NCBI GenBank assembly: GCA_040755755.1
Contig: JBFLZW010000055.1
Coordinates: 1 to 64,000 of the forward strand
From: a bacterium
Lineage (GTDB): Bacteria; SZUA-182; DTGQ01
Length of the DNA stretch: 64,000 nt
Direction of reading: 5' to 3'
Part shown: positions 260-47,538 of the stretch, piece after piece
Numbering within the stretch: position 1 is the stretch's first letter
Layout: each line of letters opens with the position of its first letter
The notes under the pieces: generated by a model
Database searches by the model: none
The model's input: the letters and a program-made list of their open reading frames with translations, nothing else
Told to the model about the DNA's origin: nothing
Program-made: the position numbers and the translations under genes

Positions 260-333
<74 letters not shown>

Positions 334-344
334 CTAGAAAAATC

Positions 345-385
345 AAGGGGATTCGGGGAAATCAATCTGAGTCCCCTTCTTTTTT
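345..385 (+). terminator. Rho-independent terminator after tRNA-Arg
   Basis: AAGGGGA (345-351) and TCCCCTT (372-378) form a stem that is followed by a T-rich tract. It lies 12 bp past the tRNA 3' end. Confidence 0.65.
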
Positions 386-502
386 GTGTGTAGGTTCATG
401 TGCAGTTTTTGAATTACTTGGAGTGTATTCATATTGCCCTCGTGATATTTTTGGGCTAGAATGGTGTAGCCTGATCAATGAGCCCTCATTAATCCGGCTT
501 AT

Positions 503-535
503 GGTCCTGGTGAGTGGTGACTCATTCCCAGGACC
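503..535 (-). terminator. Hairpin downstream of the coiled-coil gene
   Basis: GGTCCTGG (503-510) and CCAGGACC (528-535) are perfect inverted repeats just past the stop of the minus-strand gene ending at 539. There is no T tract on the minus strand, so it may protect the 3' end rather than terminate. The stretch 386-502 holds no supported gene. Confidence 0.4.
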
Positions 536-538
536 GCT

Positions 539-904
539 CTATTTTTCTTTCTTGGATATGTCAACCAACATTTGCATGATGGTATCAAGCCGCTGGTTAA
601 TCTGATCTACACGTTGACCTAATTGGCCGAATTCCTGCCTTACCTGTCCAACCTCTTGTCTTACCTGCCCTATTTCCTGCCTTACTTGGCCGACTTGTGT
701 ATCAATCTTTTGATCGAGTTTATCGAATCTCTTATCAAACTTCTCATCAACTTTTTCAATTCGTTCGCTTAATGTGTCAACCCTTGTATCTAACCGATTT
801 TCCAAAGATTCAATTTTGGTGTAGATATCAGCCAGTGTTATTCTTTTGAGTGCTTCGGAAGTCGTCTTGAATGCATCTGTGGCTTTTTTAGGTAAAATGT
901 TCAT
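539..904 (-). CDS. Coiled-coil protein with heptad repeats
   Basis: A 121-residue protein with no recognised catalytic domain. Residues 25-115 are a continuous predicted coiled coil. The middle shows near-identical heptads (GQVRQEI, GQVRQEV, GQVRQEF, then GQLGQRV), encoded by 21-bp near-direct repeats. There is no signal peptide or membrane segment. The start overlaps the stop of the upstream HTH gene by 4 nt (ATGA), implying translational coupling and a joint role. Such short coiled-coil proteins beside excisionase-like HTH proteins recur in accessory DNA, but the function is unknown to me. Confidence 0.75.
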   Translation of the reverse strand: MNILPKKATDAFKTTSEALKRITLADIYTKIESLENRLDTRVDTLSERIEKVDEKFDKRFDKLDQKIDTQVGQVRQEIGQVRQEVGQVRQEFGQLGQRVDQINQRLDTIMQMLVDISKKEK

Positions 905-1089
905 CTTGTAGCCACCCTTGCTTCTTTCTGAGAATCAATCCATCTTTCAATTTCTTCTTTTTTAAAAAGCCTTTTCCCGCCGATTTTATAAGAAGGGATT
1001 ACGCCTTTTTTAATAAGCTGCTTAATCCATACTTCACTGGATTTTAACAACTTCGCTACTTCTTTAGTAGTCATGAATTCATCAACCAT
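901..1089 (-). CDS. Excisionase-family HTH DNA-binding protein
   Basis: A 62-residue protein that is essentially one winged helix-turn-helix of the excisionase/MerR-like HTH_17 type. It opens with the family's typical MTTKEVAKLLK helix and has a recognition region around IPSYKIGGKRLF, where the KIGGKRLF wing is characteristic. It probably binds DNA as a small regulator or recombination directionality factor. No integrase is in the window. It is the first gene of a two-gene unit with the coiled-coil protein (4-nt overlap). Confidence 0.8.
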   Translation of the reverse strand: MVDEFMTTKEVAKLLKSSEVWIKQLIKKGVIPSYKIGGKRLFKKEEIERWIDSQKEARVATR

Positions 1090-1391
1090 ATTCTTTCCTT
1101 TTGTTTATGTTATCGGTTATTTATATACTAATGTATACTTATTTTGCCTGATAGTCAAGCAAATAATCACCATTTTGAAAAAGTATCTACAAGATTATTC
1201 AATGAACCAAAGATGGAAGGTAATGGCTCTGCCTACCTTTTCACCGATAGTGGACATGAGCGTTGCACAATAGCCCCCACAGAGGGAGTTTTTCCATAAA
1301 ATCTTTGGGCCAATTTTTTTGAAAATTTTTTGTCTCACTGTCATTCCCCTGATTTAACTGCCGGAGGTTTGCAGTAATGAGAGCCCATCTG
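1090..1391. other. Intergenic region, AT-rich, no gene seen
   Basis: About 300 bp between two minus-strand gene pairs. It should contain the promoter of the HTH/coiled-coil pair, and the AT-rich part at 1100-1200 suits this, but no clear -35/-10 pair stands out. A plus-strand reading frame across 1073-1273 lacks any coding signature. Confidence 0.4.
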
Positions 1392-1616
1392 CTATAGTTT
1401 CATTACCCGCTCAACTATCCATTTTAAAGGCTTTCGAGTATGGCCGACAAACTCGTTATACCCATTTAAAAATGCCAGCCATCTATCGGCATCGATTTGG
1501 CCATCAACCATGAAGGGGTCATATGCTTTGGCCGCTAATTGCCTCATATCTTCTTTGAGCCGGGAAGATTGTGACTGGCGCACCAGTTCTTCCTTTTCCT
1601 GATCAGTGAGAGCCAC
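1392..1616 (-). CDS. Small partner protein of nucleotidyltransferase
   Basis: A 74-residue charged protein that I cannot assign to a named family. The N-terminal half is helical and polar. The C-terminal half has an aromatic cluster (WLAFLNGYNEFVG). Its start lies inside the 3' end of the upstream nucleotidyltransferase gene (14-nt overlap), so the two are surely co-translated. The size and pairing resemble an antitoxin or adaptor for an MNT-like nucleotidyltransferase; this is inferred from context only. Confidence 0.7.
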   Translation of the reverse strand: MALTDQEKEELVRQSQSSRLKEDMRQLAAKAYDPFMVDGQIDADRWLAFLNGYNEFVGHTRKPLKWIVERVMKL

Positions 1617-2154
1617 GGTATTTTCTCCTCAATTCCCCTGCTGTCTCCTCAAGACCAAATAAAGCAAAATACTCCTCAATATCCGACCAATCAAGGTCTT
1701 TATGATGCAGAGCCATTATGCTTTCAATATCAGCAAGATCAGCAGTCCATCTTGCCTTGTCATTGGCCATAGCCTGCACTTTTAAGCCAATCAGGTCTTC
1801 GGGTTTCAGGACTCTTATGGTGAAACTTCCACCAAATATTTTCTTCTCCTCAGCTCTTCTCATCATACTCAGGGATATCTTACGAAAGGCATGAATGAAG
1901 TCGATTTCCCCAAAAACAGCCAAAGGTGAAACATACTGGGAGACATTTTCCGTCCGATGCACACAATCATAACCAAGTTCAGTCATAACACGGCTAATTT
2001 TGCCGAGATCATCCCGGTCAACCAGAAAATCAATATCCACTGTGGCCCGATGCACACCCCAAAAACCCAGGGCAAATCCCCCCATGAGAGCATACCGGAT
2101 ACCCTCACTCTCAAATGCAGCCAAGAGTTTCTTCATTACCAGATTGAAATCCAT
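1603..2154 (-). CDS. AbiEii/MNT-like nucleotidyltransferase
   Basis: A 183-residue protein of the nucleotidyltransferase superfamily. Residues 23-44 carry the active-site signature: GGFALGFWG, then R-x-T-x-DIDFLV, in which the two Asp residues of DID would bind metal. A later LKPEDLIGLKVQAMAN segment is typical of AbiEii/DUF6036-type proteins found in toxin-antitoxin and abortive infection loci. It overlaps the 74-residue downstream gene by 14 nt. The pair lies just beyond the type I modification gene. The substrate (tRNA, protein or nucleotide) cannot be read from sequence. Confidence 0.8.
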   Translation of the reverse strand: MDFNLVMKKLLAAFESEGIRYALMGGFALGFWGVHRATVDIDFLVDRDDLGKISRVMTELGYDCVHRTENVSQYVSPLAVFGEIDFIHAFRKISLSMMRRAEEKKIFGGSFTIRVLKPEDLIGLKVQAMANDKARWTADLADIESIMALHHKDLDWSDIEEYFALFGLEETAGELRRKYRGSH

Positions 2155-2246
2155 TTTTATAGCCTTCCTGCCTTCCTGTACTCTGTGCTTAACATTTCAA
2201 AAGCAATCCGAAAAATACTCCGGTGTGCGGCGCGGCCCCCTATATC

Positions 2247-3764
2247 TTACTCCCCATTTATCGTTTCCATGATTTGCTTAAAGCTTTCCACACTGGCTTC
2301 CAGGGTTTCAATAATCTCTCCCGCCAGTACATCCAGATCAGGCAGATTATCCAAATCTGCCAGGCTCTTATCCTTAAGCCAGAAAATGTCTAAGCTGGTT
2401 TTGTCTCTGGCAACGACTTCGTCATAGGTAAATTTTCTCCATCTGCCATCAGGATTATTTTCTGACCAGGTTTCTTTCCTTGCGCACCTGTTTTCAGGAC
2501 AGTAGCATTCGATGAAGTCGTTCATGTCTTCAAACTTCATCGGGTCCTTCTTCAGGGTGAAATGGATATTGGTTCTAAAATCATAGATCCAGACCTCTTG
2601 TGTCCACGGCTCCTTGCTGGCTGGTTTATTGTCAAAGAAGATCACATTTGCCTTAACGCCCTGCTTGTAAAATATCCCTGTCGGAAGTCTCAGGATAGTG
2701 TGCAGATCGGTAGTTTGCAGCAATTTCTTTCTCACCGTTTCACCCGCGCCGCCTTCAAACAGGACATTATCCGGTACAACGACGGCAGCGCATCCTGTCG
2801 TTTTCAGCATCGTGTGGATATGCTGTACAAAATTCAACTGCTTATTGGAAGTGGTTGCCCAGAAATCCTGCCGGTTATAGGTAAGGTCCTCTTTCTCCTG
2901 CTCTCCTTCTTCGTTGGTGGCTGTCATACTGCTCTTTTTGCCAAAAGGCGGATTGGTAAGCACATAATCATATCGTTCGCCGGTATCCGCAACCAGGGCG
3001 TCAGCCGGTGAGATAAACGATTCTCCATCTATTTCGCCAATGTTATGCAGGAACATGTTCATCAGGCATAATCTTCTGGTATTGGCCACAATTTCGTTTC
3101 CGAAGAAGGTTTTATGTTTCAGGAATTCCTTTTGCTCCCTGTCGAGGCTGCGGTTATGGTTATGGACGATAAAATCATAAGCCGCCAGGAAAAAACCACC
3201 CGTACCGCAGGCGGGATCGGCTATGGTCTTCATAGGTTCAGGACGGATACATGCGACCATCACCTTTATCAAGTCTCTTGGGGTAAAATACTGACCTGCC
3301 CCGCTTTTGGTGTCCTCCGCGTTTTTCTCCAGCAATCCTTCGTATATCTGGCCTTTTATGTCAGCACCCATGAGCGCCCAGTTCTCTTTGTCGATCATGT
3401 CGATGATCTTATAAAGCTTGGCCGGATCTTGAATCTTATTCTGAGATTTGGTAAAAATCTGTCCCAGCATCCCCTTTTGCTGTCCAAGGGTCCGTAAAAG
3501 ATTTATGTAGTGCGTCTCAAGATCAGCCCCTCTTTTTGAACGCAGACTCTCCCAGGTATACTCTTGAGGGATAGGCAGGTGACGGTTATAAGGGGGTTTG
3601 CTGAATTCATCCGCCATTTTCAGAAACAGGAGGTATGTAAGCTGTTCCAGATAGTCACCATAGCTTACGCCATCATCCCTGAGTACATTGCAAAAACTCC
3701 ATACCTTGGATATGATGCTGGATGTATTAGTGGTAGTGTTGGTGTTACTATTACCATTACTCAT
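2247..3764 (-). CDS. hsdM: Type I restriction-modification methylase subunit M
   Basis: A 505-residue N6-adenine methyltransferase subunit. Visible parts are the HsdM N-terminal helical domain (about 15-140), the SAM-binding motif ADPACGTGGFF, and the catalytic NPPFG motif followed by KKSSMT. Length is normal and no frame disruption is seen. HsdM needs HsdS for target recognition. Here only the C-terminal tail of hsdS remains upstream, overlapping by 4 nt (ATGA), so this is probably an orphan without sequence specificity unless another HsdS acts in trans. The N-terminus begins with an Asn/Thr-rich stretch (SNGNSNTNTTTNTSS) encoded by a degenerate trinucleotide-like repeat, unlike typical HsdM. 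Confidence 0.93.
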   Translation of the reverse strand: MSNGNSNTNTTTNTSSIISKVWSFCNVLRDDGVSYGDYLEQLTYLLFLKMADEFSKPPYNRHLPIPQEYTWESLRSKRGADLETHYINLLRTLGQQKGMLGQIFTKSQNKIQDPAKLYKIIDMIDKENWALMGADIKGQIYEGLLEKNAEDTKSGAGQYFTPRDLIKVMVACIRPEPMKTIADPACGTGGFFLAAYDFIVHNHNRSLDREQKEFLKHKTFFGNEIVANTRRLCLMNMFLHNIGEIDGESFISPADALVADTGERYDYVLTNPPFGKKSSMTATNEEGEQEKEDLTYNRQDFWATTSNKQLNFVQHIHTMLKTTGCAAVVVPDNVLFEGGAGETVRKKLLQTTDLHTILRLPTGIFYKQGVKANVIFFDNKPASKEPWTQEVWIYDFRTNIHFTLKKDPMKFEDMNDFIECYCPENRCARKETWSENNPDGRWRKFTYDEVVARDKTSLDIFWLKDKSLADLDNLPDLDVLAGEIIETLEASVESFKQIMETINGE

Positions 3765-4141
3765 AAGGCTTTCTCTTTTTTCCGGTTGTTTGAATTATTT
3801 TTTTCCACTTCGCGCCTGGCTTTTTCCGCTCTTATTCGCTCCAGGAGTACACTGGCCGGTTCATCATTCGGGTCCTGGGGGACAAGTTTTCCCTCAAAGG
3901 CTTTCTTCAGAATGACTTGCCGCAGGGCTTCGGCTTTTTGCAGGGCTTCCTCGATGTTGGCTTCGATTTTGTCGCAAACGGATAGGCGGGTTTCGATTTC
4001 CTGGACGATTTGGGATTGTTCAGCAATACAACAATAAGGAATCACGATATTTTCAAGTGTCGTGAGATTAATATTTCTTTGCGCACTAGCAGGTGCATAA
4101 GTTTCAATTTCTTGCCTTGTGGATTGAATGAAATATCTTAC
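3761..4141 (-). pseudogene. hsdS: Specificity subunit hsdS, C-terminal remnant only
   Basis: The frame open from 4141 to the stop at 3761 encodes about 126 residues matching the end of HsdS: the tail of the second target-recognition domain (VRYFIQSTRQEIETYAP, then NLTTLENIVIP), then the conserved C-terminal helix (EIETRLSVCDKIE, LKKAFEGKLVPQDPNDEPA). About three quarters of the protein is missing. The sequence is cut at about 4141-4150, where it meets an hsdR remnant in a different frame. An ATG at 4045 could allow a 94-residue product, but it would lack any recognition domain. Confidence 0.85.
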
Positions 4142-4293
4142 ACACCCGGACTGGCGTTAAAGTTTATTTTATCTTTATCCTGTACAGCCCAGCCAGACTG
4201 TCTGAGCATCGTGTCTATCTTATCTCTGGCGTTCTGTTCCGGGGTTTGGTTTATGCTATTGAACATCTTTGCTATCCAGGAGATAAGCCCCAT
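4138..4293 (-). pseudogene. hsdR: Restriction subunit hsdR, N-terminal remnant only
   Basis: ATG at 4293 opens a 51-codon frame. The part TPEQNARDKIDTMLRQSGW followed by VQDKDKINFNASPGV matches the conserved first domain of type I HsdR/DEAD-box restriction subunits, where the next residues would normally be AVREY. It ends at a TAA created at the junction with the hsdS remnant. Everything after roughly codon 50, including nuclease and helicase domains, is gone. A purine-rich AAGGA lies about 9 nt before the ATG. Confidence 0.75.
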
Positions 4294-4420
4294 GATTTTT
4301 CATCCTTGAGTTAAGGAGAAAAATAATTGTTTAGAAAGAAAATACAGATAAATTTGCTACTATTATAGTATGTTTCAAGGGAGAAAATCAAAGGGGGAAA
4401 TAGGAAAAAAGGTTGCGGTA

Positions 4421-4451
4421 TGTGGTGGGGCAAAAAAGCAGCCCCACCCTA
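4421..4451. repeat. GC-rich hairpin in hsd/nifA divergent region
   Basis: GGTGGGGC (4424-4431) and GCCCCACC (4441-4448) are perfect inverted repeats around a 9-nt A-rich loop, flanked by TGT and ACA that extend the stem. It resembles short REP-like hairpins scattered in many genomes. The rest of 4294-4603 is AT-rich and holds no gene. Confidence 0.45.
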
Positions 4452-4571
4452 CATGTGGTCACTGCCTTTCTCATGGGAGATAGCCCTCGTCAATTCCCTT
4501 GCTTCCTTGTAATTCCCGCGCCGTGTACTGAGCTCCTCACTCTCTGAATCGCTGAAAACAGGCAAATTTTT

Positions 4572-4600
4572 TTGACTTATATCTCAACTTGTAGTATTTT
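4572..4600 (+). promoter_or_regulatory. Possible promoter immediately before nifA-like gene
   Basis: TTGACT (4572-4577), a 17-bp spacer, then TATTTT (4595-4600). Transcription would begin near 4607, between the two candidate ATGs (4604 and 4613), which would give an almost leaderless message. No Shine-Dalgarno precedes either ATG, which is consistent. Weak evidence. Confidence 0.3.
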
Positions 4601-4603
4601 ATT

Positions 4604-6205
4604 ATGTTTGATATGGCAAAAGAAAATCAAGCTCTTAACGCTGTTAACCATGAAAACAGACCGGACACGTCCTCCTTTCTGGAAAGGAAGATCCAGGAAC
4701 TGACTGTGCTTTACGAAACCAGTCGGCTCCTTGTCTCTACTCCTGACCCTAAAGATGCTTTGGGCTCTGTCCTGGGAATTCTCCATTCTCACATGGGCAT
4801 GAGCCGGGGAACTATAACCCTCTTGAACCCGCAGACTCATGACCTGAGCATTGTGGTGGCTCATGGGCTGACTGATCAGGAAATGGAGCGGGGACGCTAC
4901 CAGGTGGGAGAGGGAATCACCGGCACAGTGGTAGAAAAGGGATCGCCCGTAATTGTTCCCAATGTGGGAAAAGAGCCGCTCTTCTTAGACCGGACCAAGG
5001 CCCGTGGAGATATCCAGAAAAAAAATATCTCCTTCATTTGTGTGCCCATCAAAATGGGATCGGTTATCTATGGCGCGCTCAGTGTGGACCGCCTGTTCAG
5101 CGAAGACATCTCTTTTGAGGAGGATTTAAGGCTTCTCACCATTATTGCCTCCAATGTTGCCCAATCCATAAAAATCAGCCAGATGATGGAAGAGGAAAGG
5201 AACCGCTTGCGGGACGAAAATGTAACCTTGAAGGAGCAGCTCAAGGAGCGGTACAGCTTCTACAATATCGTGGGCAGAAGCAACAAGATGACAGATGTGT
5301 TCGAGATGATCGAGCAGGTCTCAGCCAGTGACGCTACCGTGCTCATCAGGGGAGAGAGCGGGACAGGTAAGGAGCTTGTGGCCAATGCTATCCATTATAA
5401 CAGTCCGAGGGCCAAGGGGCCGTTTATTAAGATGAACTGCGCCGCCATACCGGAGACATTGATTGAAGCCGAGCTCTTCGGGCACGAAAGAGGCGCCTTC
5501 ACCGGCGCAGTGGTCAAGCGGATCGGGAAATTCGAGCGGGCCCACACGGGAACTTTTTTTCTGGATGAGATCGGGACCCTCAATCTCACTGCCCAGGCCA
5601 AGATTTTAAGGGTATTGCAGGAAAGGGAGTTCGAAAGAGTCGGCGGAGCGGATACAATCAAGGTGGATGTGCGGATCATTGCCGCCACCAATAAACCCCT
5701 GGAAGAGGCCTTGCAGGAGGGTACTTTCAGGGAGGATCTCTACTACCGCCTCAATATTTTCCCCATCTATCTTCCCCCGCTGCGGGAGAGAAAAACGGAT
5801 ATCCTTCTCTTGGCCGATTTTTTCCTGAAAAAGTACCGGAAAAAATATGGGAAGGATATCAGGAGAATCTCCACTCCGGCGATTGACATGCTCATGCGCT
5901 ATCACTGGCCCGGCAATGTGCGGGAGCTGGAAAATTGCATGGAAAGAGCCGTGCTCCTGTGTACCGACCATGTTATCCATAGCTATCACCTGCCGCCTAC
6001 CCTCCAGACGGGCAAAGAGTCTGGCACTCTGCCTGCCCAGTCCCTGGACTCCGCGATCGAGACGCTGGAAAAAGAATTGATTATCGACGCTTTGAAAGCC
6101 AGTCATGGCAGCCTGGTCGGTGCAGCCAGACTCCTGAGCACCTCGAAAAGAGTTCTGGGCCTGAGAGTAAAGAAGTATCGCCTCAACCCAAAGCAATACC
6201 GCTAG
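4604..6205 (+). CDS. nifA: NifA-like sigma-54 activator (GAF-AAA-HTH)
   Basis: A 533-residue enhancer-binding protein. An N-terminal GAF domain (about 27-190) is followed by a coiled linker and the AAA+ core, with Walker A GESGTGKE at 250-257 and the sigma-54 contact loop in [11 protein letters not shown]. The end is a short Fis-type HTH (about 485-525). This is the architecture of NifA. It lies directly upstream of nifH on the same strand, so it is the probable activator of nif and perhaps glnA. There is no CxxC-rich oxygen-sensing linker between AAA+ and HTH of the rhizobial kind. The start may be 4604 or 4613; neither has a clear ribosome site. Other GAF-AAA-HTH regulators look alike, so the name rests partly on context. 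Confidence 0.85.
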
Positions 6206-6259
6206 GCGCTTAACGCCGCACCATCGACTCATTAACCAACCTTCATGGAAGAATGATCT

Positions 6260-6328
6260 CCCGCAGAGACGCTGAGACGCAGAGGATATCATTTTCGGTT
6301 ATTCTCTGCGCCTCTGCGTCTCTGCGGG
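6260..6328. repeat. Long inverted repeat downstream of nifA
   Basis: The 25-nt arm at 6260-6284 (starting CCCGCAGAGACG) pairs with 6304-6328 at 22 of 25 positions around a 19-nt loop. The GCAGAGACG/CGTCTCTGC type is a widespread dispersed hairpin. It may end the nifA transcript, but there is no T tract. Confidence 0.6.
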
Positions 6329-6438
6329 ATAAATACAACTCTGCCGTGTCGTCTTTCCCATAAGAGCGACCAAAATAATATCAACCAGTTCAGCATTATT
6401 TTCAAATGAAAAACTACAGAATGGTAAGAACCTCCCTG

Positions 6439-6460
6439 AATCCTACCGTTTGGTAGGATT
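6439..6460. promoter_or_regulatory. Perfect palindrome in nifH leader region
   Basis: AATCCTACC (6439-6447) and GGTAGGATT (6452-6460) are perfect 9-bp arms around GTTT, followed by TTT and then CG. It could be an attenuator-like terminator on the plus strand or an operator about 100 bp upstream of the putative nifH promoter. It is not the TGT-N10-ACA NifA site. Confidence 0.45.
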
Positions 6461-6557
6461 TTTCGAGCCCTCTTCCTCCTTCTCCAAAATAGCCCTGAAA
6501 ATTATTACCATCTTAACAACAATAAGTTAACTCTCCAGGCCACAAAGTTTTCTCATC

Positions 6558-6572
6558 TGGCATCGCTCTTGA
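6558..6572 (+). promoter_or_regulatory. Putative sigma-54 promoter of nifH operon
   Basis: TGGCAT at 6558-6563, 5 bp, then TTGA at 6569-6572. The -24 element fits, but the -12 element has GA instead of the usual GC. It lies about 60 bp upstream of the nifH start. The only near NifA site is TGT-N10-ATA at 6347, one base off consensus. Confidence 0.45.
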
Positions 6573-6590
6573 GATTATCGGTAATCGTAA

Positions 6591-7457
<867 letters not shown>

Positions 7458-7478
7458 ATAGAAAGGAGAGTAAAAACC

Positions 7479-7859
7479 ATGATTATGATCAGAGCTATCG
7501 TCAGACCGGAAAAGAGCAATGAAGTTATGAAGGCGCTTATGGATGCCGGATTTCCGGCAGTAACGAAAATGGAGGTTTTCGGCAGGGGCAAGCAGCGGGG
7601 GTTGAAGGTGGGAGAAGTTACCTACGATGAGCTGCCCAAGGACCTTTTGTTGATCGTGGTCAGGGATGAGGATAAGGATTTCGTTATCCGCAGTATCATG
7701 GAATCGGCCAGATCGGGAGAGCGCGGTGCTTTTGGCGACGGGAAGATATTCGTGAGCCCTGTTGATGAGGTATATACCATAAGCAGCGGCAGCAGGGAAA
7801 CATCAGCCGAAGCCGCACGAGAGGCAGTCAGCGCGGCACCCCGGGAGGGAGCGGCATGA
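7479..7859 (+). CDS. nifI1: PII-family nitrogen sensor NifI1
   Basis: A 126-residue GlnB/PII-like protein. The N-terminus MIRAIVRPEKSNEVMKAL and the C-terminal GDGKIFVSPVDEVYTI are PII signatures. The T-loop is the NifI1 type (GRGKQRGLKVG), lacking the uridylylated Tyr context of GlnB. In methanogens NifI1 and NifI2 together bind NifDK and switch it off unless 2-oxoglutarate is present; that role is inferred here from family and position. The C-terminal tail of about 25 Ala/Glu-rich residues is an extension. It overlaps nifI2 by 4 nt (ATGA). Confidence 0.93.
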   Translation: MIMIRAIVRPEKSNEVMKALMDAGFPAVTKMEVFGRGKQRGLKVGEVTYDELPKDLLLIVVRDEDKDFVIRSIMESARSGERGAFGDGKIFVSPVDEVYTISSGSRETSAEAAREAVSAAPREGAA

Positions 7860-8242
7860 AAGAGATCATAGCCATTATCCGCATGAACAGAATGAGCCAG
7901 ACCAAAAAAGCGCTCATCGAAATCGGATTTCCCTCGTTCACCGCTCATAAGGTCATGGGCCGGGGCAGGGGGTTTGTAGACCTGGACCTTTTGCGGGGTG
8001 CCGCCGAAGGGTTGGAGGATGCCATTCCTCAGCTTGCTCAGGGACCTCGCCTGATCCCAAAGCGGCTCCTGAAGATGGTGGTGCCGGATGATAAGATCGA
8101 GCTTCTCGTCGAGACCTTAATAAAGGTCAATCAAACAGGCAATGCCGGGGATGGAAAGATATTCGTTATGCCCATCACCGATGCTATCAGGATCAGGACC
8201 AAGGAAAGCGGACTTGAGGCCATCAGTGAGATGAATGAATAG
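7856..8242 (+). CDS. nifI2: PII-family nitrogen sensor NifI2
   Basis: A 128-residue PII-like protein. It begins MKEIIAIIRMNRMSQTKKAL, has the NifI2-type T-loop start GRGRGFVD and ends GDGKIFVMPITDAIRIRT. It is the partner of NifI1 in post-translational control of nitrogenase by 2-oxoglutarate and ATP. Translationally coupled to nifI1 through a 4-nt overlap, and 32 bp before nifD. Confidence 0.93.
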   Translation: MKEIIAIIRMNRMSQTKKALIEIGFPSFTAHKVMGRGRGFVDLDLLRGAAEGLEDAIPQLAQGPRLIPKRLLKMVVPDDKIELLVETLIKVNQTGNAGDGKIFVMPITDAIRIRTKESGLEAISEMNE

Positions 8243-8274
8243 ACTGATGGCCCTCTTTCAGAAGGAGACAGTGC

Positions 8275-9903
8275 ATGTCCCAGGAAATAAAAGACCTTCC
8301 CCCGGTAAAAATGGAGGAAGCGGTAGAGGAAATATTGAAGGTATACCCCACAAAAGTGGCGCGCAAGCGGCGCAGCCACATCGTGGTGGTGAACCCGGAT
8401 GAGGGGCAGCAGCAAATCGAGGCCAATGTGCGGACCATACCGGGCATCATAACCCAGCGCGGCTGCTGCTTTGCCGGGTGCAAAGGGGTGGTGATCGGCC
8501 CGATCATCGACATGGTCCACATCGTTCATGGCCCTATAGGCTGTGCATTCTACAGTTGGGGTATCAGGCGGAACATGGGCAGGGTGCAGGAAGGAATGAA
8601 GAATTTTCTCCAGTACTGCTTCTCGACCGATATGCAGGAGGAAAACATCATCTTCGGCGGTGAGAAAAAGCTCAGAGAAGCGATCAGGGAGGCGGACAGG
8701 CTGTTTAATCCCAGAGCTATCTCGGTTCATGCCACCTGCCCGATCGGGCTGATCGGAGACGATATTCATCAGGTAGCCAGAGAGATGTCGAAGGAGCTCG
8801 GTAAACAGGTGCTCTCCTTTAGCTGTGAGGGCTACAAGGGAGTCAGCCAGTCCGCCGGGCACCATATAGCCAACAACGGTCTTTTTAAAAATGTCGTTGG
8901 CCGTGATGACGAGGGGGAGGAGGAGGGTTTTACGATCAATGCCCTCGGTGAATACAATATCGGCGGAGATGCCTGGGAGATCGAGAGGATTTTGAAAAAC
9001 TGCGGCATCCGGGTGCTCAGCACCTTCAGCGGCGACGGCTCTTACGAGGAGATAAGCCGGGCACATAAGGCCAAACTGAACATGGTTCAGTGCCATCGGT
9101 CCATTAATTATATGGCTGACATGATGGAGAAAAAATTCGGCATCCCCTGGGTCAAGGTCAACTTTATCGGAGTGAATGCCACCGTCAAGTCCCTGCGCAA
9201 GATCGCCCGGTTTTTTGATGACCGGGAATTAACCGATCGGATAGAGAAGGTTATCGAAAAAGAGCTGGCTGAAGTCACACCTCAGATCGAGAAATATAAA
9301 CCCTTATGTGCGGGGAAAAAAGCCATGCTGGTCGTTGGCGGATCTCGCGCCCATCACTATCAGGAGCTGTTCAGGGACCTTGGAATGGCCTCGATCGCAG
9401 CCGGTTATGAATTTGCTCACCGGGATGATTACGAAGGCCGGCAGGTTTTGCCGACCATCAAGATCGATGCGGACAGCCGCAACATTGAAGAGCTTCAGGT
9501 GGAAGCAGATCCCGAAAGATTCCATCCCCCTAAGCCGGAAGAGGTAATAGCCCGGTTAAAGGAAGAGGGAACCATCGATTCGTATGAGGGAATGATGCCC
9601 TCCATGATCAAAGGCAGCATCGCGGTCGATGATATCAGCCATATCGAGATGGAAAAGCTGATCAGGCGGTTTCGCCCGGACGTCTTTTGCGCTGGCATCA
9701 AAGACAAGTATGTGATTCAAAAGATGGGACTACCATCCAAACAGTTGCATAACTACGACTATGGCGGCCCATATGCCGGATTCCGGGGAGCGGTAAACTT
9801 TGCAAAAGAAATGGCCATGCTTCTCAATAACCCGGTCTGGAGCTATGTCAAGCCCCTGTGGGAAAAAGAGCCTGAAATCAGGGCCGAATTCGGCAATAAG
9901 TAG
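8275..9903 (+). CDS. nifD: Nitrogenase MoFe protein alpha chain NifD
   Basis: A 542-residue alpha subunit. P-cluster Cys ligands are in QRGCCFAGCKG, GPIGCAFYSWG and HATCPIGLIGDD. FeMo-cofactor ligands are Cys273 (in VQCHRSINYM) and His492 (in KQLHNYDYGGPY). An insertion of about 50 residues (roughly 385-440, LPTIKIDADSRNIEE onward) matches the clostridial-type NifD and explains the length. These features support a molybdenum, not vanadium or iron-only, enzyme. A ribosome site (AGAAGGAGA) precedes the ATG. Between nifI2 and nifK. Confidence 0.97.
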   Translation: MSQEIKDLPPVKMEEAVEEILKVYPTKVARKRRSHIVVVNPDEGQQQIEANVRTIPGIITQRGCCFAGCKGVVIGPIIDMVHIVHGPIGCAFYSWGIRRNMGRVQEGMKNFLQYCFSTDMQEENIIFGGEKKLREAIREADRLFNPRAISVHATCPIGLIGDDIHQVAREMSKELGKQVLSFSCEGYKGVSQSAGHHIANNGLFKNVVGRDDEGEEEGFTINALGEYNIGGDAWEIERILKNCGIRVLSTFSGDGSYEEISRAHKAKLNMVQCHRSINYMADMMEKKFGIPWVKVNFIGVNATVKSLRKIARFFDDRELTDRIEKVIEKELAEVTPQIEKYKPLCAGKKAMLVVGGSRAHHYQELFRDLGMASIAAGYEFAHRDDYEGRQVLPTIKIDADSRNIEELQVEADPERFHPPKPEEVIARLKEEGTIDSYEGMMPSMIKGSIAVDDISHIEMEKLIRRFRPDVFCAGIKDKYVIQKMGLPSKQLHNYDYGGPYAGFRGAVNFAKEMAMLLNNPVWSYVKPLWEKEPEIRAEFGNK

Positions 9904-9919
9904 TAGGGGAGAAAACAAT

Positions 9920-11317
9920 ATGCTGAGTTTAACACCGAAAGAAATATCTGACAGAAATGCTTTAACCGTTAATCCGGCCAAAACCTGTCAGCCTATAGGA
10001 GCCATGTATGCGGCGCTCGGCATTCACCGGTGCCTGCCGCACAGCCACGGGTCTCAAGGGTGCTGCGCCTACCACAGGAGCCACCTGACCCGGCACTACA
10101 AAGAGCCGGTCATGGCCTCAACCAGTTCCTTCACCGAAGGTGCGGCAGTGTTTGGCGGCATGAGTAACCTGCGCCAGGCCATTACCAACATATTCCATAT
10201 ATATGATCCCGATGTTATCGCGGTCCATACCACCTGCCTGTCCGAGACCATTGGCGATGACCTTTCCACGATCATCCTCAAGGCCAGAGACGAGGGCCTC
10301 GTTCCTGAGGGGAAATGGGTCATTCACTGCAACACTCCAAGCTACGCAGGCTCTCACGTGACCGGATTTTCCAATATGACCACGGGCATGGTGAAATACT
10401 TCGCTCAGGAAAACGAGAGACACCGCGAGCAGATAAACCTCATTCCAGGATATGTGGAGCCTTCGGACATGCGGGAAATAAAGAGGCTGCTGGCCGAAAT
10501 GGAGCTTCCGTCAGTGGTTTTCCCGGACACTTCGGATGTTTTGGATGCGCCGCAGCAGGGAGCCCCTGTGTCAGTCGGAAAGGCTGCTGATATCTACCCC
10601 AAGGGCGGGACCCGGATCAGGGACCTTCAGAGCATGGGGGACAGCAGGGTCACTCTGGCCCTTGGCCCGTTCGCCTCGGAAAATGCAGCCATAGAGCTTG
10701 AGAACAGGACCGAAATTCCAGCCAGGATCATGGACCTTCCCATCGGCATCGCTGCTACTGACCGGTTTATCCAGGTGCTTCTGGAAACAGCCGAAGTGCT
10801 GGAGCCACCTGCTTCCATTGCTGATGACAGGGGAAGGATGGTGGATATCATGCTCGACATGCAGCAATATTTCTATGATCGCAAGGTAGCCATTTACGGG
10901 GACCCTGATCAGGTGATCAGTCTCACTGAATTTGCAGTCAGCCTGGGAATGAAGCCAATCTATGTCCTGACCGGCACGCCGGGGAAACGCTTTGATGCGC
11001 GAATCAAGGGTATTTTGAAAGATGTCGTACCTGGAGCCAGAATAAAGAGCAGCGGAGACCTCTTCCTGCTCCATCAGTGGATCAAGAACGAGCCGGTGGA
11101 CCTTCTGATTGGAAACACCTACGGCAAATACATAGCCAGGGCCGAGGATATCCCCTTTGTCCGCTTTGGTTTCCCTATCCTGGACAGAGTGGGCCACAGC
11201 TACTTTCCAACCGTGGGATACCGGGGCGGAATGCGGCTCTTGGAGAAAATGCTCGATGCCCTCCTCGACCGCAAGGACAGGGACGATCCGGAGGAGCGCT
11301 TTGAACTGGTATTGTAA
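9920..11317 (+). CDS. nifK: Nitrogenase MoFe protein beta chain NifK
   Basis: A 465-residue beta subunit. The start at 9920 is chosen because AGGGGAG lies about 10 nt upstream and MLSLTPKEI matches known starts; the frame is open back into nifD. P-cluster ligands are in AKTCQPIGAMYAALG, HGSQGCCAYHRSHL and HTTCLSETIGDD. It lacks the long N-terminal extension of the Azotobacter protein, as in clostridial NifK. It ends GFPILDRVGHS, then a conserved C-terminal region. 16 bp after nifD. Confidence 0.97.
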   Translation: MLSLTPKEISDRNALTVNPAKTCQPIGAMYAALGIHRCLPHSHGSQGCCAYHRSHLTRHYKEPVMASTSSFTEGAAVFGGMSNLRQAITNIFHIYDPDVIAVHTTCLSETIGDDLSTIILKARDEGLVPEGKWVIHCNTPSYAGSHVTGFSNMTTGMVKYFAQENERHREQINLIPGYVEPSDMREIKRLLAEMELPSVVFPDTSDVLDAPQQGAPVSVGKAADIYPKGGTRIRDLQSMGDSRVTLALGPFASENAAIELENRTEIPARIMDLPIGIAATDRFIQVLLETAEVLEPPASIADDRGRMVDIMLDMQQYFYDRKVAIYGDPDQVISLTEFAVSLGMKPIYVLTGTPGKRFDARIKGILKDVVPGARIKSSGDLFLLHQWIKNEPVDLLIGNTYGKYIARAEDIPFVRFGFPILDRVGHSYFPTVGYRGGMRLLEKMLDALLDRKDRDDPEERFELVL

Positions 11318-41391: not shown

Positions 41392-43146
41392 TCAGGTATA
41401 GAAGCTCTTGAGCACCTTACTTCTGCTCGGATGTCTCAACTTTCTGAGTGCCTTGGCTTCAATCTGCCGAATTCTCTCCCGGGTAACATCAAAATCCTGC
41501 CCTACCTCTTCCAGAGTATGCTCGCATGACTCACCAATTCCAAATCGCTTTCTTAAGACTTTTTCTTCCCGGTAATTCAAAGTTTCCAGTATCCGGTTGG
41601 TCTGCTCGCTCAAATCAATACTGATAACTGCATCCAGGGGGGATTCGGCCTTTTTATCCTCAATAAAATCACCAAGGTGACTGTCCTCTTCCTCACCGAT
41701 AGGAGTCTCCAGAGATATCGGCTCCTGCGCTATTTTTAAAACTTTCCGAACCTTATCAACTTCCAGATCCATTCTCTCGGCAATTTCTTCAGGAGTCGGC
41801 TCTCTGCCCACTTCCTGAACCAGAGACCGCGAGGTTCTGATCAGCTTGTTAATCGTTTCGATCATATGGACCGGAATCCTGATGGTTCTGGCCTGATCTG
41901 CAATTGCCCTGGTGATCGATTGGCGGATCCACCAGGTTGCATAGGTACTGAACTTATACCCCCGCTTGTACTCGAACTTATCCACCGCCTTCATGAGACC
42001 AATATTGCCCTCTTGAATCAGGTCTAAAAACTGTAACCCTCGATTGGTATATTTCTTGGCAATACTGACCACCAGTCTCAAGTTTGCCTCAACCAATTCT
42101 CGTTTGGCCTTTTCCGCTTCCCCTTCTCCTTCCTTGACCTCTCTGACGATCTGGCGCAGTTCCTCGGCACTCAGCCCGGCCTCCTGCTCCGCACGCTTGA
42201 CTTTCCGGTAGGTATTACTCAAACCTCTTTCATAGTGAACAAGGTCCTCTTCAGAAAGAGAGGAAGAAATGTCCGCAAGCAGTCTGCTGCGCTGTTTTAT
42301 TGCCTTGCGCAATTCCAGATAACTGATGCCGATTTCCTTTTCAACCAGATGCATTTCTTTGACTGCATTGTCAATCTGATCGAGGAATACCCTGATCTTT
42401 TCAACTATCTTATTGATCTGCCGGGAATCCAGGGGAATCATTCTTATTAATTTGACAATCTGGGCTTGTTTTTTTTGAACGAGCTTACTGATCATTTTTT
42501 TCTGGATACTGTCTATATCCCTCTTGCCTGCTTCCAGTTGAAGGGCATGTGTTTCCATCTCCAGTTTCTCAATCGCCTCGACCATCTTGATAAAGTTACC
42601 CGCCGCTTCCGCCTCAGCATCCTCAAAGTGCAAGCTTTCTTCACTGTCAATCGACTGGATGTCCCGGGGAATGTTTTTCCCTTCCACCATCCGGTTCTTG
42701 AGATCGATGATCTCCCGATAGGCGACAGGAGTCCTGGTAATGGCTTTCAGCATCCTCTGCTTTCCCTGCTCTATCCTTTTGGCAATCCGGACCTCGTCCT
42801 CCCGCGTTAAAAGAGGCACGGTTCCCATCTCCCGGAGATACAGCCGGACCGGATCATCCGTTCTGCCTACATACGAACCGGCAACCTCCTCATCCAATTC
42901 CGTAAGCCCCAGATCGCCGATCTTCTCTTCAGGTTCAAGCTTTTCCTCGGAATACTTGTTCTTTTCCGTATCATCGATAATATTAATGTCCATCTCATTG
43001 AACATGATAAATATATCATCAATTTCTCCCGACGATACAACATCATCGGGCAGAAAATCATTCACCTCTTCATACGTCAGGTAACCCTTTTCCTTGCCAA
43101 TGGAAATCAGTTGTTTCACCTGATCCACCTTTACTTCGTTAGACAT
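41392..43146 (-). CDS. rpoD: Primary sigma factor RpoD
   Basis: A 584-residue sigma-70. Region 1.1 is at the N-terminus ([20 protein letters not shown]). Region 1.2 is [21 protein letters not shown], with a non-conserved region between 1.2 and 2. Region 2 has [20 protein letters not shown] and [18 protein letters not shown]. Region 4 has [28 protein letters not shown] ribosome site precedes the ATG. Third gene of the rpsU-dnaG-rpoD macromolecular synthesis group. Confidence 0.98.
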
Positions 43147-43242: not shown

Positions 43243-45102
43243 TCATCCTATGATAATCTTTTTCTTGATTTCTGAATATTCTTTCAATAACATATTGATT
43301 TTCGGATCATTCTGTGGCTTTGCCTGTATCTCATCGTGCAAAGACTGCAATTTTCTTACCAATTCACGGCTTTTTATCTTGGCCACACAATCATGAAATA
43401 TTTTATTAATGTCTTCATGCTGAGCTTCCTCAAAAAGGAAGCCGGATACTGCTCCTTTTAACTTTTCGTCTTTGAGAGATAATATCAGTTCTTCCGGACT
43501 GAGCTTCCCTCGCTCCCGCCAGAGAGAAAAAACCGCCTGAGCGATGTCTTTCATTGATTCCGATTGAAAATCATGATCACTAATAGATTGCGCAACAACA
43601 TCCTCCATTGATACATTTCCCCGGCAGATGAGGCCCATCAGCATTCGCTCCGCCACCTGAATTGCATCAAGGACAGAGGGGTTTCCCCGACTGCCCGGAT
43701 CCGTTGCAGGAAAAGGTGCCTCTTTTCTCCCGCTCCTGAACGGCACAGGTGTTTTATCGCCTCTGAAAGACATCTGCTGTGCTTGCCGGATATTTCGCTG
43801 CAATCCCTCAAAAAGCGTCTCCTCATGAATGTCGAGACGTTTTGCAATCTGTTTTACATATTCCATTCGAACCAACGGGTCAAAAACTTTGGATAAAATT
43901 ACTAAAATCTCTTTGGTGGCCTTTATTTTTCCCTCAACAGTTGAAATGCCGCTCCGTTGGATGGATTGATTAATCAGAAATTCGATAGCCGGACTACTCT
44001 GGTCAATCCTTGCTCCAAGCTCCTGCGGGCCATATTGCCGGATAAAGCTGTCCGGGTCATGGCCGGAAGGAAGCGTAACCACCCGGACATCGATATTATG
44101 CTGCTGAAAAATTTCGAGCCCGCGTAACATGGCTGATATTCCCGCCTGATCGGCATCGTATAAAAAAACGACCTTATCCGTATATCGTTTCAGCAGCTTT
44201 ACCTGTCCCTGGGTCAGCGCTGTCCCCAGAGTGGCCACAGTATTTTTGAAGCCCCCCTGATACAGGGAGAGGAAATCCAGATACCCCTCAACCACAATAG
44301 CCAGGCCACATTTTCTCATGAACTGTTTAGCCTGGAAAAGTCCATATAAACTGTTACTTTTGCTATAAACTGACGTCTCGGACGAATTCAGATATTTTGG
44401 CCCGAAGGCTCCCTCATCAATCTTTCGCCCCCCGAAGGCTATAATTTTTCCATCATGGCTGTAGATGGGAAACGTTATCCGGCCCCGAAACCGGTCGTAT
44501 CCTTCTTTCCCTTCCTGACGAATGGATACCAGTCCCGCTTCAATCGCCTGACCTGCTGAAATATTCTTCTTCTGTAAGTAAGAAATAAGGTCTTTCCCCG
44601 AATCTTTACTATAACCCAGGCAGAACTCCTCTATCGTCTGCGAAGTTACCTGCCGGGAAGCCAGATATTTCCGGGCAGTCCTTCCCACCGGTGAGCTTAT
44701 GAGCAGTTCATGATAATACCGGGCAGCAAGTTCATTAACCTGGAGAATCAGCCCTTTTTCTTTATTTTCCCTGTCATTAACAATAAGACCGCTTATTTCA
44801 GGAAGCGTTATGCCCTGTCGTTGTGCGAGATATTCAACCGCCTCGATAAATGAGCAGTTTTCAAATTTCATTAAAAATGATAGAATATTCCCTCCAGCAC
44901 CGCAACCAAAACAGTAAAAAAGCTGCTTCGCCGGGCTGACAGTAAAAGAAGGGGTTTTTTCCTGGTGGAAGGGGCACAGGCCGGTGAACTCTTTCCCTGC
45001 TTTGGAAAGGGGCACAAATTCTGAAATAACTTCTATAATATCAATGCCCTGGATTACCCGATATACCGTTTCCTGGGATAGATGCTTCAAGTAATACCTC
45101 AT
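43243..45102 (-). CDS. dnaG: DNA primase DnaG
   Basis: A 619-residue replication primase. The CHC2 zinc finger is near residues 40-65 ([21 protein letters not shown]). The Toprim domain has [15 protein letters not shown] and [10 protein letters not shown]-terminal helical domain for DnaB binding follows (about 480-619). ATG 45102 lacks a clear ribosome site; a TTG a few codons later is an alternative. 96 bp upstream of rpoD. Confidence 0.97.
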
Positions 45103-45570
45103 GAAAAGCTCATAGTTGTTACCGGGGAAAATATTCTGATAATTTATTTTTGGTGTAACATTCTGATCCTTAATGAGGATCTTTTATGCGCTCATTATCG
45201 GCAATACCAGCTTCTGTTTCCCTAAAATCACGTTCAGGTATATCCCGGGATAGACACAGGGGGAGAGCTTAGCAGGCAGGTAAGAATCTTCTCCTCAATA
45301 GAGCAAGTCCCAATCTTGCTCTCTCAAGATGGTCAGTCCACAAAGCTTTATCAGAGTCCGGAGCAGGTTGTCAGGAGTACAGCTTGAAATTCCTTTCCGT
45401 TAAGCTTTATTTGCCCTCATCATTCTCGATTCTCTTCTTCCTAGATTCTCTTCTTCATAAATCAAGAAACAAGATAACTACCGGGTAGATCTCAGCACAC
45501 TACCTGTTTTCCTTCAGACTAACCGAGGTTATATAGTAATACAGGAAATAATAATCGCCGGCGGCATTTG
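45103..45570. other. Long gap between rpsU and dnaG with hairpins
   Basis: About 470 bp without a gene, unusually long inside this normally tight gene group. It contains perfect hairpins GATCCT-TAATG-AGGATC (45165-45181, followed by TTTTAT) and AGAGCAAG-N7-CTTGCTCT (45300-45322). dnaG presumably has its own promoter here. I do not recognise a known RNA family. Confidence 0.45.
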
Positions 45571-45607
45571 AAAAAAAAAGATTCGGGATGGTATTGCATC
45601 CCGAATC
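45571..45607 (-). terminator. Rho-independent terminator after rpsU
   Basis: GATTCGGGAT (45580-45589) and ATCCCGAATC (45598-45607) are perfect 10-bp arms with an 8-nt loop, followed on the minus strand by nine T. It separates rpsU from dnaG. Confidence 0.92.
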
Positions 45608-45637
45608 ACCCGTGTCTAAATTTCCGCCCTGCGAGAA

Positions 45638-45823
45638 TCATATTCTCTTCTTTTGCGCTTTCTTTCGCGCAGCAATAGCTTTTCTTTTCCTTCTGGCGCT
45701 CGGCTTCTCGTAATGCTCTCTCCGCCGAAACTCAGTTAAGACTCCAGACTTTTCACATTGCTTCTTGAACCTGCGCAAAGCACTTTCAAAGGATTCGTCT
45801 TCCCTTATCTTTACAACTGGCAA
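45638..45823 (-). CDS. rpsU: Ribosomal protein bS21
   Basis: A 61-residue basic protein of the 30S subunit: start [20 protein letters not shown], a middle [14 protein letters not shown], and a Lys/Arg-rich helix at the end. The reading frame starts with TTG at 45823; an ATG four bases upstream (45827) is in another frame and would encode only 13 residues. The GGAGGGAGGG site (45840-45831) could serve either. First gene of the rpsU-dnaG-rpoD group, separated from dnaG by a terminator. Confidence 0.95.
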
Positions 45824-45895
45824 TCATTTTCCCTCCCTCCGGAACAGTATATTTATATCTCTCGTTCAAGTTATATACACTCGTCTAAAATAGAT

Positions 45896-45924
45896 AGTAT
45901 AGCTACGGTAACAGGAAATGTCAA
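45896..45924 (-). promoter_or_regulatory. Consensus sigma-70 promoter of rpsU
   Basis: Minus strand TTGACA (45924-45919), exactly 17 bp, then TATACT (45901-45896). Near-perfect housekeeping promoter. It would start transcription near 45889, about 65 bp before rpsU. Confidence 0.8.
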
Positions 45925-46060
45925 GTATAATTTTGAACTTCAGAGCCAGTGTCTGAAGTATAGTATAGCGCCATTGGTGGGAAAAAAGCAAATAATTATT
46001 TTGCAGGGAGGTGTGTTAAAGCGTATTACGTGTTGAGATAGCATTGGTACCTTTGAGTAT

Positions 46061-46118
46061 AACGTTACCAAATTAGTAACGTTATCAGATTGTTAACGTT
46101 ACTAAACAGCAAACGTTA
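46061..46118. repeat. Four AACGTTA boxes with exact 17-bp period
   Basis: AACGTTA begins at 46061, 46078, 46095 and 46112, so each interval is 17 bp. The 10-bp spacers differ, though their A/T content is similar. The first two boxes also form an inverted repeat, TAACGTTAC-N7-GTAACGTTA. It lies in the gap between rpsU and the tRNA methyltransferase gene. It looks like an iteron or repeated operator, but no replication protein is nearby. Confidence 0.7.
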
Positions 46119-46152
46119 CTGATATGCGCCGCAAGGATAACTCAAAAATTAA

Positions 46153-46980
46153 TCAATTTCTTAAACACTCCAGCTTCTCCTGAAAATCACGGTATATATT
46201 CTCGATTTCCTCAGAAGGGATGCCCTTCTCCCGGTAGAGAACGAGGGGAGGAAGAATCCGCAACCCGACCTGGCGGTTTTTATATGCCTCGATTAAGAAG
46301 TGCCGAGATTCTGCCCAAGAGTAGGGATAGAGTAATTGCAGGGTTTTTGGCTCAAGACGATGCTTCTTGAGAAGAGGTAACAATTCGGCCAGCCTGAAGG
46401 AGGGCAGAACAAAATAGGCACGTCCCCCATTCTTCAGTAAAATACCGGCTACGGAAATGAAGGACTCAAGGGAAGCGAAAACTTCATGCCGTGCCCCGGC
46501 CCGGCAGGGGTTGGGATTGATCCGCCCCGAATGTGCAGGGCGGTAGGGAGGATTGGAGATGACCGCATTCAGGGAACCTGGCTGTAATAGCCGGGGGAGG
46601 TTGTGCAGGTCCTCATGCAAAACTTTCATCCGGCGAGATACTCCGTTGATAATGCTGTTTCGCAGGGCCTGGTCTGCTAAATGATCCTGAATCTCGACAG
46701 CACAAAACATCGATTCAGGATAAAGCTTAGTCAGCAGCAGGGTGATAATGCCGTTTCCGGCACCGAGATCTATAGCCTGCTCATGCCTTTTAATTCTGGC
46801 AAAATGAGCCAGCAAAACCGAATCCACAGAGAAGCGGTAACCGGAACGGCCTTGAATAATGGATATTTTCTGGCCAAATAATGTGTCTACGGTTTCATCT
46901 TTCATCACCAGAGCATTCTGGGGCAGGTCCATCGATGGTTCCTTATGGTAACATATTCCAGGTACAAGATATTGTACCAT
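46153..46980 (-). CDS. tRNA1(Val) adenine-37 N6-methyltransferase-like
   Basis: A 275-residue class I methyltransferase. The SAM motif is AIDLGAGNGIITLLLTKLYP and the catalytic motif is VISNPPYRPA, as in the TrmN6 (YfiC) group of N6-adenine methyltransferases. It begins with the family's DETVDTLFGQKISIIQGRSGYRFSVD region (read in two parts). Start may be ATG 46980 or an in-frame ATG at about 46932. A close alternative is an RNA/protein N5-glutamine methyltransferase, but the NPPY surroundings favour TrmN6. Confidence 0.85.
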   Translation of the reverse strand: MVQYLVPGICYHKEPSMDLPQNALVMKDETVDTLFGQKISIIQGRSGYRFSVDSVLLAHFARIKRHEQAIDLGAGNGIITLLLTKLYPESMFCAVEIQDHLADQALRNSIINGVSRRMKVLHEDLHNLPRLLQPGSLNAVISNPPYRPAHSGRINPNPCRAGARHEVFASLESFISVAGILLKNGGRAYFVLPSFRLAELLPLLKKHRLEPKTLQLLYPYSWAESRHFLIEAYKNRQVGLRILPPLVLYREKGIPSEEIENIYRDFQEKLECLRN

Positions 46981-47012
46981 TCCTGATTCGTGATGAAAAC
47001 CCTCTCATCAGC

Positions 47013-47041
47013 TTGACAAGAAAGTAGTTTATTTATATTAT
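47013..47041 (+). promoter_or_regulatory. Sigma-70 promoter of DUF3842-CooT pair
   Basis: TTGACA (47013-47018), 17 bp, then TATTAT (47036-47041). It lies about 48 bp before the TTG start of the DUF3842 gene. Confidence 0.7.
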
Positions 47042-47088
47042 CTTGGAGAAGCGAAGCTTGGAACCTTATCAAGGAGAGGGAAGAACTC

Positions 47089-47538
47089 TTGGTACTTGCA
47101 GTTATCGACGGGCATGGCGGTGGTATTGGGAGCTATATTATCAAGCGGCTGCGAGAAGAGGATGAGTTAAATAACCTTGAGGTCATCGCCCTGGGGACCA
47201 ATTCTCTGGCCACTTCGGCCATGATGAAAGCCCGTGCAAACCGCGGAGCTTCCGGAGAAAATGCCATTGTGTTTGTTGTGCAGCAGGTCAATATCATTAC
47301 CGGATCATTTACCATTGTCATGGCCAATTCAATGCTGGGAGAACTAACCCCCAAAATGGCCGAAGCCATTGCCAGCAGCAACGCTTTAAAGCTCCTGCTG
47401 CCTCTGCCGGTAGAGAAAGTCTCCATGATCGGTTATCAATACGAGCCTCTGCCTCACCTCACTGATAAACTGGTACAGAAAATTAAAGAACTGGTAGCCA
47501 CCGAAGGCAAGAAGGAGATAAGAGAAAGCCGTGTGTGA
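47089..47538 (+). CDS. DUF3842 protein
   Basis: A 149-residue protein of unknown function with a Rossmann-like glycine-rich start (VIDGHGGGIGSYIIKRL) and a conserved ALGTNSLATSAMMKARANRG stretch. The start is TTG, with AAGGAGAGGG about 10 nt upstream. It overlaps the following CooT-like gene by 8 nt, implying joint function. The family occurs mainly in anaerobes; a nucleotide or cofactor-binding role is suggested by the glycine motif only. Confidence 0.85.
   Translation: MVLAVIDGHGGGIGSYIIKRLREEDELNNLEVIALGTNSLATSAMMKARANRGASGENAIVFVVQQVNIITGSFTIVMANSMLGELTPKMAEAIASSNALKLLLPLPVEKVSMIGYQYEPLPHLTDKLVQKIKELVATEGKKEIRESRV

Follow-up and report, generated by a model that had tools for sequence, protein, structure and literature searches.

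A lineage-restricted array of palindromic boxes at 17-bp steps upstream of rpsU-dnaG-rpoD as a candidate operator cluster

The closest precedent that we encountered for the exact word TAACGTTA is the operator of GraA, a HigA-family antitoxin of the XRE type. GraA binds the graTA operator of Pseudomonas putida, which carries TAACGTTA as its central palindrome; a pair of GraA dimers occupies it, one on either side of the helix, and each recognizes one of the TAAC halves (PMC6393540). Changes within the palindrome reduce the affinity by factors of 100 to 10,000, and substitutions elsewhere by a factor of less than 10. Two dimers per palindrome need an operator of 33 bp, the bare palindrome being unbound, and within a dimer the two helix-turn-helix motifs are separated by 35 Å (PMC6393540). 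In Pseudomonas aeruginosa, HigA is reported to control mvfR in addition to its own operon and to use a palindrome printed as TTAAC GTTAA (PMC6987408). In PMC10101121, TAACGTTA belongs to lacI primers, and the terms searched retrieved no TAAC/GTTA sites from the accessible text of PMC11006873 and PMC5906591.

Here, we describe an array of four boxes of this type in the window, i.e. the whole stretch of 64,000 nucleotides of bacterial DNA that was analyzed. A literature search that included TAACGTTA and GTAACGTTAC found no description of this array. We tentatively interpret the boxes, with a probability of about 0.47, as four operator-like candidate sites for a homodimeric helix-turn-helix protein with TAAC half-sites in the palindrome TAACGTTA. 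The array was first noticed in a sequence-only reading of the window, and what became of its claims is reported where the evidence bears on them.

Anatomy and genomic setting of the array

A motif scan of the window finds AACGTTA on the forward strand at 46061, 46078, 46095 and 46112, in agreement with the four boxes and the exact 17-bp period of the sequence-only reading. The same word is found on the reverse strand at 46060, 46077 and 46094, because three of the boxes are the palindrome TAACGTTA, a property that the earlier reading had missed. Written in register in 17-bp steps from 46060, the units are TAACGTTACCAAATTAG, TAACGTTATCAGATTGT, TAACGTTACTAAACAGC and AAACGTTACTGATATGC, and the array totals 59 bp (Table 1). 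The 8-bp palindrome is perfect in three of the four boxes and has a single mismatch in the fourth; a random 8-mer is palindromic with P 0.004. Tandem Repeats Finder (TRF) describes the array with a period of 17, only 2.8 copies and 76% matches. Over both strands of the window, AACGTTA is observed 10 times against 2.91 expected, a count reached by none of 100 shuffles, seven of the 10 matches being supplied by the array, where palindromes are counted twice. No other four identical 7-mers at equal steps (spacing 10-60) occur in the window, and none were found in five windows simulated with a first-order Markov model. As separate observations on composition, the local GC skew, negative at first, becomes positive within 45750-46250, the region of the array, and 45875-46124 has the lowest GC content (0.35) of the 4 kb profiled.

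On one side of the array, 34 bp away, a methyltransferase gene ends; on the other, rpsU starts, with dnaG and rpoD next in order and all four genes on the reverse strand. The intergenic position and the vicinity of the rpsU-dnaG-rpoD group were correctly recognized by the earlier reading. Its naming of the neighbor as a tRNA methyltransferase is likely rather than established, since TrmN, its best NCBIfam match, scores 58 bits where the cut-off is 350. The -35 box of the promoter-like site before rpsU lies 135 bp downstream of the end of the array, so that the array does not overlap the detected promoter; the 1 kb scanned holds three promoter-like sites against 1.6 expected from shuffles. None of the four nearest proteins scanned is a regulator, which, like the lack of overlap with the promoter, counts against the operator reading.

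Table 1. Coordinates of the array and its neighboring features in the window
Feature	Position	Strand	Remark
Box 1, TAACGTTA	46060..46067		perfect palindrome
Box 2, TAACGTTA	46077..46084		perfect palindrome
Box 3, TAACGTTA	46094..46101		perfect palindrome
Box 4, AAACGTTA	46111..46118		palindrome with one base off
Three 9-bp spacers	46068-46076, 46085-46093, 46102-46110		related though diverged; mostly transition differences
Methyltransferase small-domain protein gene	46153..46980	-	TrmN is the best NCBIfam match, far under its cut-off
Sigma-70-type promoter-like site before rpsU	45896..45924	-	TTGACA-17-TATACT, 11/12 matches; shared with the same-genus genome
rpsU (ribosomal protein S21)	45638..45823	-	first gene downstream of the array
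dnaG (primase)	43243..45102	-	downstream of rpsU
rpoD	41392-43146	-	recognized from its translation; follows dnaG

Duplication origin, box conservation and distribution

Outside the box, 25 of 60 pairwise comparisons between the units agree, a level above that of shuffled spacers (P 0.013). The identity of the spacers at the level of purine or pyrimidine class is 0.75 (P 0.002), and transitions make up 20 of their 35 differences (P 0.002). This transition-rich divergence of related spacers indicates that a single 17-mer, duplicated in tandem, gave rise to the array. The earlier claim that boxes were kept while spacers vary consequently stands for the boxes, which account for seven contiguous invariant columns, but was incomplete for the spacers, since these are diverged copies of each other (P 0.002-0.013) rather than simply variable. 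All seven invariant columns of the 17 lie in the box and the other ten vary; under random placement, seven such columns are contiguous with P 0.0009.

The same facts fit a second history, in which a 17-bp minisatellite of this lineage is decaying neutrally and the constancy of the box is luck or a by-product of copying. This is the main rival of the operator reading and a serious possibility. The relatedness of the spacers speaks for it, and homology does run along the full period, but divergence is not even along the unit. In star-like simulations of even decay, arrays with an overall identity at or below that observed kept an invariant run of at least seven columns in just 0 to 0.07% of cases (0/210, 2/2,949, 2/9,832, 0/16,243, 1/19,120, 0/19,872 and 0/19,982 from the lowest to the highest rate), which argues against the rival. 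Without conditioning on identity, a decay rate that gives a mean identity of 0.66, the value observed, leaves such a run in 1.9% of the arrays, which is in favor of the rival. The invariant run by itself is not decisive, because it belongs to a type of finding selected out of a very large number of windows. That the surviving word is palindromic is a point additional to the run and counts against neutral decay. Compared with degenerate intergenic minisatellites, the array shares the exact period, the related spacers and the restriction to one lineage; it differs in having a palindromic box that is better conserved than the remainder of the unit. A decayed minisatellite and an array of binding sites are compatible and do not exclude each other.

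The distribution of the array is that of a lineage-restricted element, which also suits the minisatellite history. No second array was found in the 5.26-Mb genome, and AACGTTA-N10-AACGTTA occurs at this locus only. With up to three mismatches allowed, seven forward matches were obtained in the genome, three of them in the array itself, against 11 for the reversed control. The palindrome TAACGTTA totals 27 sites in the genome, below the 44 of the reversed control, and of the 24 sites outside the array, 20 fall within stop-to-stop frames with a minimum length of 100 codons. The lack of a second array and these site counts weigh against the operator reading. Among nine genomes of the class, the source genome alone has TAACGTTA pairs 3-32 bases apart, and an exact pair at 17 bp is absent from 39 other genomes (8 of the same class, 31 sharing the domain only).

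A genome of the same genus shares the methyltransferase-rpsU-dnaG order and the rpsU promoter but lacks the array, with no AACGTT in 3.2 kb around rpsU, which argues against the operator reading. Its gap between the methyltransferase gene and rpsU measures 198 bp against 329 bp here; a gain here and a loss there are both compatible with this difference. A survey of seven further genomes (G001-G007, the same-genus genome included) covered nine rpsU loci, L235 being cut by a contig end and the G008 locus and a weak second G002 match being left out; a single isolated AACGTT was seen, at L241. The earlier reading had named two things that would speak against it: no similar array or conservation elsewhere, and spacers that prove to be a decayed minisatellite. 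We find no second array, no pair in the 39 genomes and spacers that are a decayed 17-bp repeat, so the objection holds in half.

In a public genome collection, 48 stretches contain AACGTT as a triplet in 17-bp steps, a count from which records close to the genome of the window may be left out. A spacer identity of at least 0.60 in 37 of the 48 marks most of them as plain repeats, a further point for the minisatellite history. Two stretches are near rpsU or dnaG. In Shewanella sp. MBTL60-007 (L093, 2394-2473), a 17-bp minisatellite of AAACGTTTGATTTCACG occupies the yqeY/dnaG gap of an rpsU-yqeY-dnaG-rpoD group; in the Oculatellaceae cyanobacterium Prado106 (L055, 4986-5074), a degenerate 17-bp array of AACGTTAGCAGATTGT lies between the gene of an RRM protein and rpsU, and one of its units resembles unit 2 of the window. 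Both share with our array the period of 17, the AACGTT core (imposed by the search) and the same operon neighborhood or gene. They differ from it in that the Shewanella array is a near-perfect repeat with a spacer identity of 0.89, and the cyanobacterial array is degenerate, with 0.54. For rpsU in a tile of at most 8 kb, 0.085 such coincidences are expected (P 0.003), or 0.17 with two rpsU genes per genome (P 0.013); a 700-bp version gives P 0.0001, with a distance chosen after the matches were known. On follow-up, one of the 29 other Shewanella loci proved to have a 17-bp array, and none of the 29 other cyanobacterial loci an AACGTT triplet, with one rpsU locus taken per genome although cyanobacteria often have several. 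Since related arrays are this rare, the two arrays are probably independent, and the coincidence with rpsU was rejected as a conserved link, neither group showing conservation.

Structural, mobile-element and replicative readings

The array could instead be a structural element, either a nested RNA hairpin at the end of the methyltransferase transcript or an extruded DNA cruciform, which we regard as unlikely. In its favor, the array DNA folds into a symmetric nested hairpin of -14.4 kcal/mol (z -5.5 against plain shuffles), the reverse-strand RNA of the array folds to -23 kcal/mol, and a longer stretch of reverse-strand RNA has z -2.3, with 3 of 200 shuffles equally good; moreover, no intrinsic terminator was detected between the methyltransferase gene and rpsU. 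However, keeping the boxes fixed and shuffling the spacers removes most of the signal (P 0.066-0.088 for DNA, 0.084-0.144 for forward-strand RNA and 0.039-0.054 for reverse-strand RNA), and the hairpin is therefore largely a product of the repeated palindromes. Because complementarity outside the boxes is barely or not significant (P 0.039-0.144), the box and not the hairpin is the best candidate for the unit that is kept. A T-run after the array is absent as well, and an Rfam search of 45000-47500 yields two matches far below their family cut-offs, one of them over the array; both belong to microRNA families and were taken as chance.

Two specific structural candidates were rejected. An intrinsic terminator is not found at the array, the sole site in 45500-46500 being 45607-45580, after rpsU. 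The 59-bp nested hairpin also suggested an integron attC site. The core sites of attC are RYYYAAC and GTTRRRY, and neither strand of 45950-46200 has core sites.

That the array is left over from a control region of a phage or plasmid, as a cluster of operators or iterons retained in the chromosome, is very unlikely. Six viral stretches were retrieved with a 17-bp pattern that specifies AACGTT alone (spacer identity 0.37-0.53), with TAACGTTA in all three boxes of five of them and in four of five boxes of the sixth, and the array lies in an intergenic stretch whose length here exceeds that in the same-genus genome. Against this, neither the four nearest proteins nor, on visual inspection, the ORFs of 40-52 kb include a phage, Rep or integrase gene, the segment has no second copy in the genome, and plasmid and phage records match over at most 29 bases. 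Among at least 118 further viral loci, a spacing of 17 is not favored either (two loci; peaks at 11, 12, 21 and 24), and outside genes it occurs in seven of the loci listed, six of which are the preselected L103-L108. The arrays of L103-L107 are moreover not independent, because L103 and L105 share a contig and L104-L107 share a gene neighborhood. Among the matches listed in the scan over all spacings, most pairs at 21, 24, 30 and 36 are inside predicted frames, and the phage link suggested by the 17-bp viral scan was dropped, since 17 is not favored among these matches. A mobile element was likewise rejected: 45990-46160 has no second genome copy, the best other matches being one of 24 bases (E 0.017) and the self-match of the array to its reverse complement.

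Some of the viral contigs are described here in their own right. On a 90.9-kb viral contig (IMGVR_UViG_3300021962_000060, 2942-10660; L103), 29 TAACGTTA occur in 7.7 kb, where short ORFs are each followed by a cluster of four boxes in steps of about 23/13/23, the inner boxes being part of long, near-perfect inverted repeats; the layout resembles a gene-cassette array sharing one palindromic word. A second viral contig (IMGVR_UViG_3300012358_000003, 217-335; L108) has eight AACGTT, mostly as TAACGTTAATG, in steps of 17 and 13 and with no long ORF adjoining. A third (IMGVR_UViG_3300031760_000128, 1986-2035; L123) has three TGTAACGTTACA palindromes in 19-bp steps near an ORF that, by eye, is SSB-like.

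A role in replication was also rejected. The DnaA-box consensus is TTWTNCACA, and the comparison with origin or DnaA-box regions proposed by the earlier reading finds a single such site in the window, at 11665 and thus 34 kb away, where 4.18 are expected by chance; no rep or dnaA gene is found in the four nearest proteins scanned or, by eye, in the ORFs of 40-52 kb. Of the iterons or operators considered at the outset as protein-binding sites, replication iterons are thereby disfavored, with no DnaA box or Rep gene nearby, while the palindrome fits the operator of a dimeric protein.

The operator reading compared with GraA and HigA

As an operator cluster, the array would have formed when one 17-bp unit was duplicated in tandem, after which the spacers would have drifted and the recognition word alone would have been kept. 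Its most likely action would be a modulation, through cooperative binding, of the transcription that enters rpsU-dnaG-rpoD, or an insulation of this operon from read-through. The operon is proposed as target because of the location of the array, upstream of the -35 box and just past the methyltransferase gene, and the link to its expression is accordingly a suggestion from position. If the boxes bind a protein, they would offer a snapshot of the birth of a multi-site operator in one lineage, upstream of a widely conserved operon, and would suggest that a regulator specific to the lineage acts on rpsU-dnaG-rpoD. Should they bind nothing, they caution that decaying repeats can mimic box-like conservation.

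A candidate partner in the same genome was considered. The only HigB-like match found there (PF05015; G000:C72:126091) is on a contig other than that of the array, and the HigA beside it resembles GraA overall, scoring 102.9 bits for TIGR02607 against a cut-off of 47.7. Its best solved relatives are 6f8h, 6fix and 6f8s (E 3.5e-20), which we take to be GraA. Compared with these chains, Asn42 and Arg46 are kept and Gln replaces Pro39, the residue of GraA that enters the major groove. The higBA promoter region contains the palindromes CGTCACGTGACG, which includes TCACGTGA, and ATCTTAAGAT. In this module (L250, 1795-1806), the 12-bp CGTCACGTGACG has the half-site TCAC instead of TAAC and lies, by eye, between TTGACA and TATCAT. 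The TCACGTGA palindrome in the promoter and the Gln at the position of Pro39 weaken this HigA as a partner: it probably reads a word other than TAACGTTA and is probably not the protein of the array. A second or solitary XRE protein of the HigA/GraA kind, with another binding geometry, might have been recruited to the operon of S21, primase and housekeeping sigma factor through the home-grown array of four TAACGTTA, the rpsU/dnaG arrays of Shewanella and the cyanobacterium being parallel inventions. This is highly speculative and to us the least credible of the proposals; if true, it would tie an antitoxin-type regulator to the macromolecular synthesis of the cell.

Set beside the operators of HigA and GraA, the array has the central palindrome of the TAACGTTA type, three times perfect and once with a mismatch. 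The match to one known operator is weak evidence alone, because only 256 such 8-bp palindromes exist. The room of 33 bp per palindrome is missing: boxes are 17 bp apart and the facing half-sites of neighboring boxes 13 bp apart, so not all boxes could be filled at once in the manner of GraA. Neither adjacent higBA-type genes, the neighbors being the methyltransferase gene and rpsU, nor an overlap with -35 or -10 elements is seen.

The likeness to the graTA operator lies in the identical 8-bp core TAACGTTA and in the fact that specificity in the GraA operator sits in the palindrome. An array conserved in its boxes alone is the trace that would be expected of a protein with GraA-like specificity. 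The graTA operator, however, has one palindrome in a 33-bp operator within a toxin-antitoxin promoter and needs its flanks for binding, whereas the array has four palindromes at 17-bp steps, far from the promoter and with no adjoining toxin-antitoxin genes. With the HigA sites of P. aeruginosa in the higBA and mvfR promoters, the array shares the half-sites, and HigA there is reported to act beyond its own operon; those sites consist of one or two palindromes with demonstrated binding, while the array offers four evenly spaced, putative sites.
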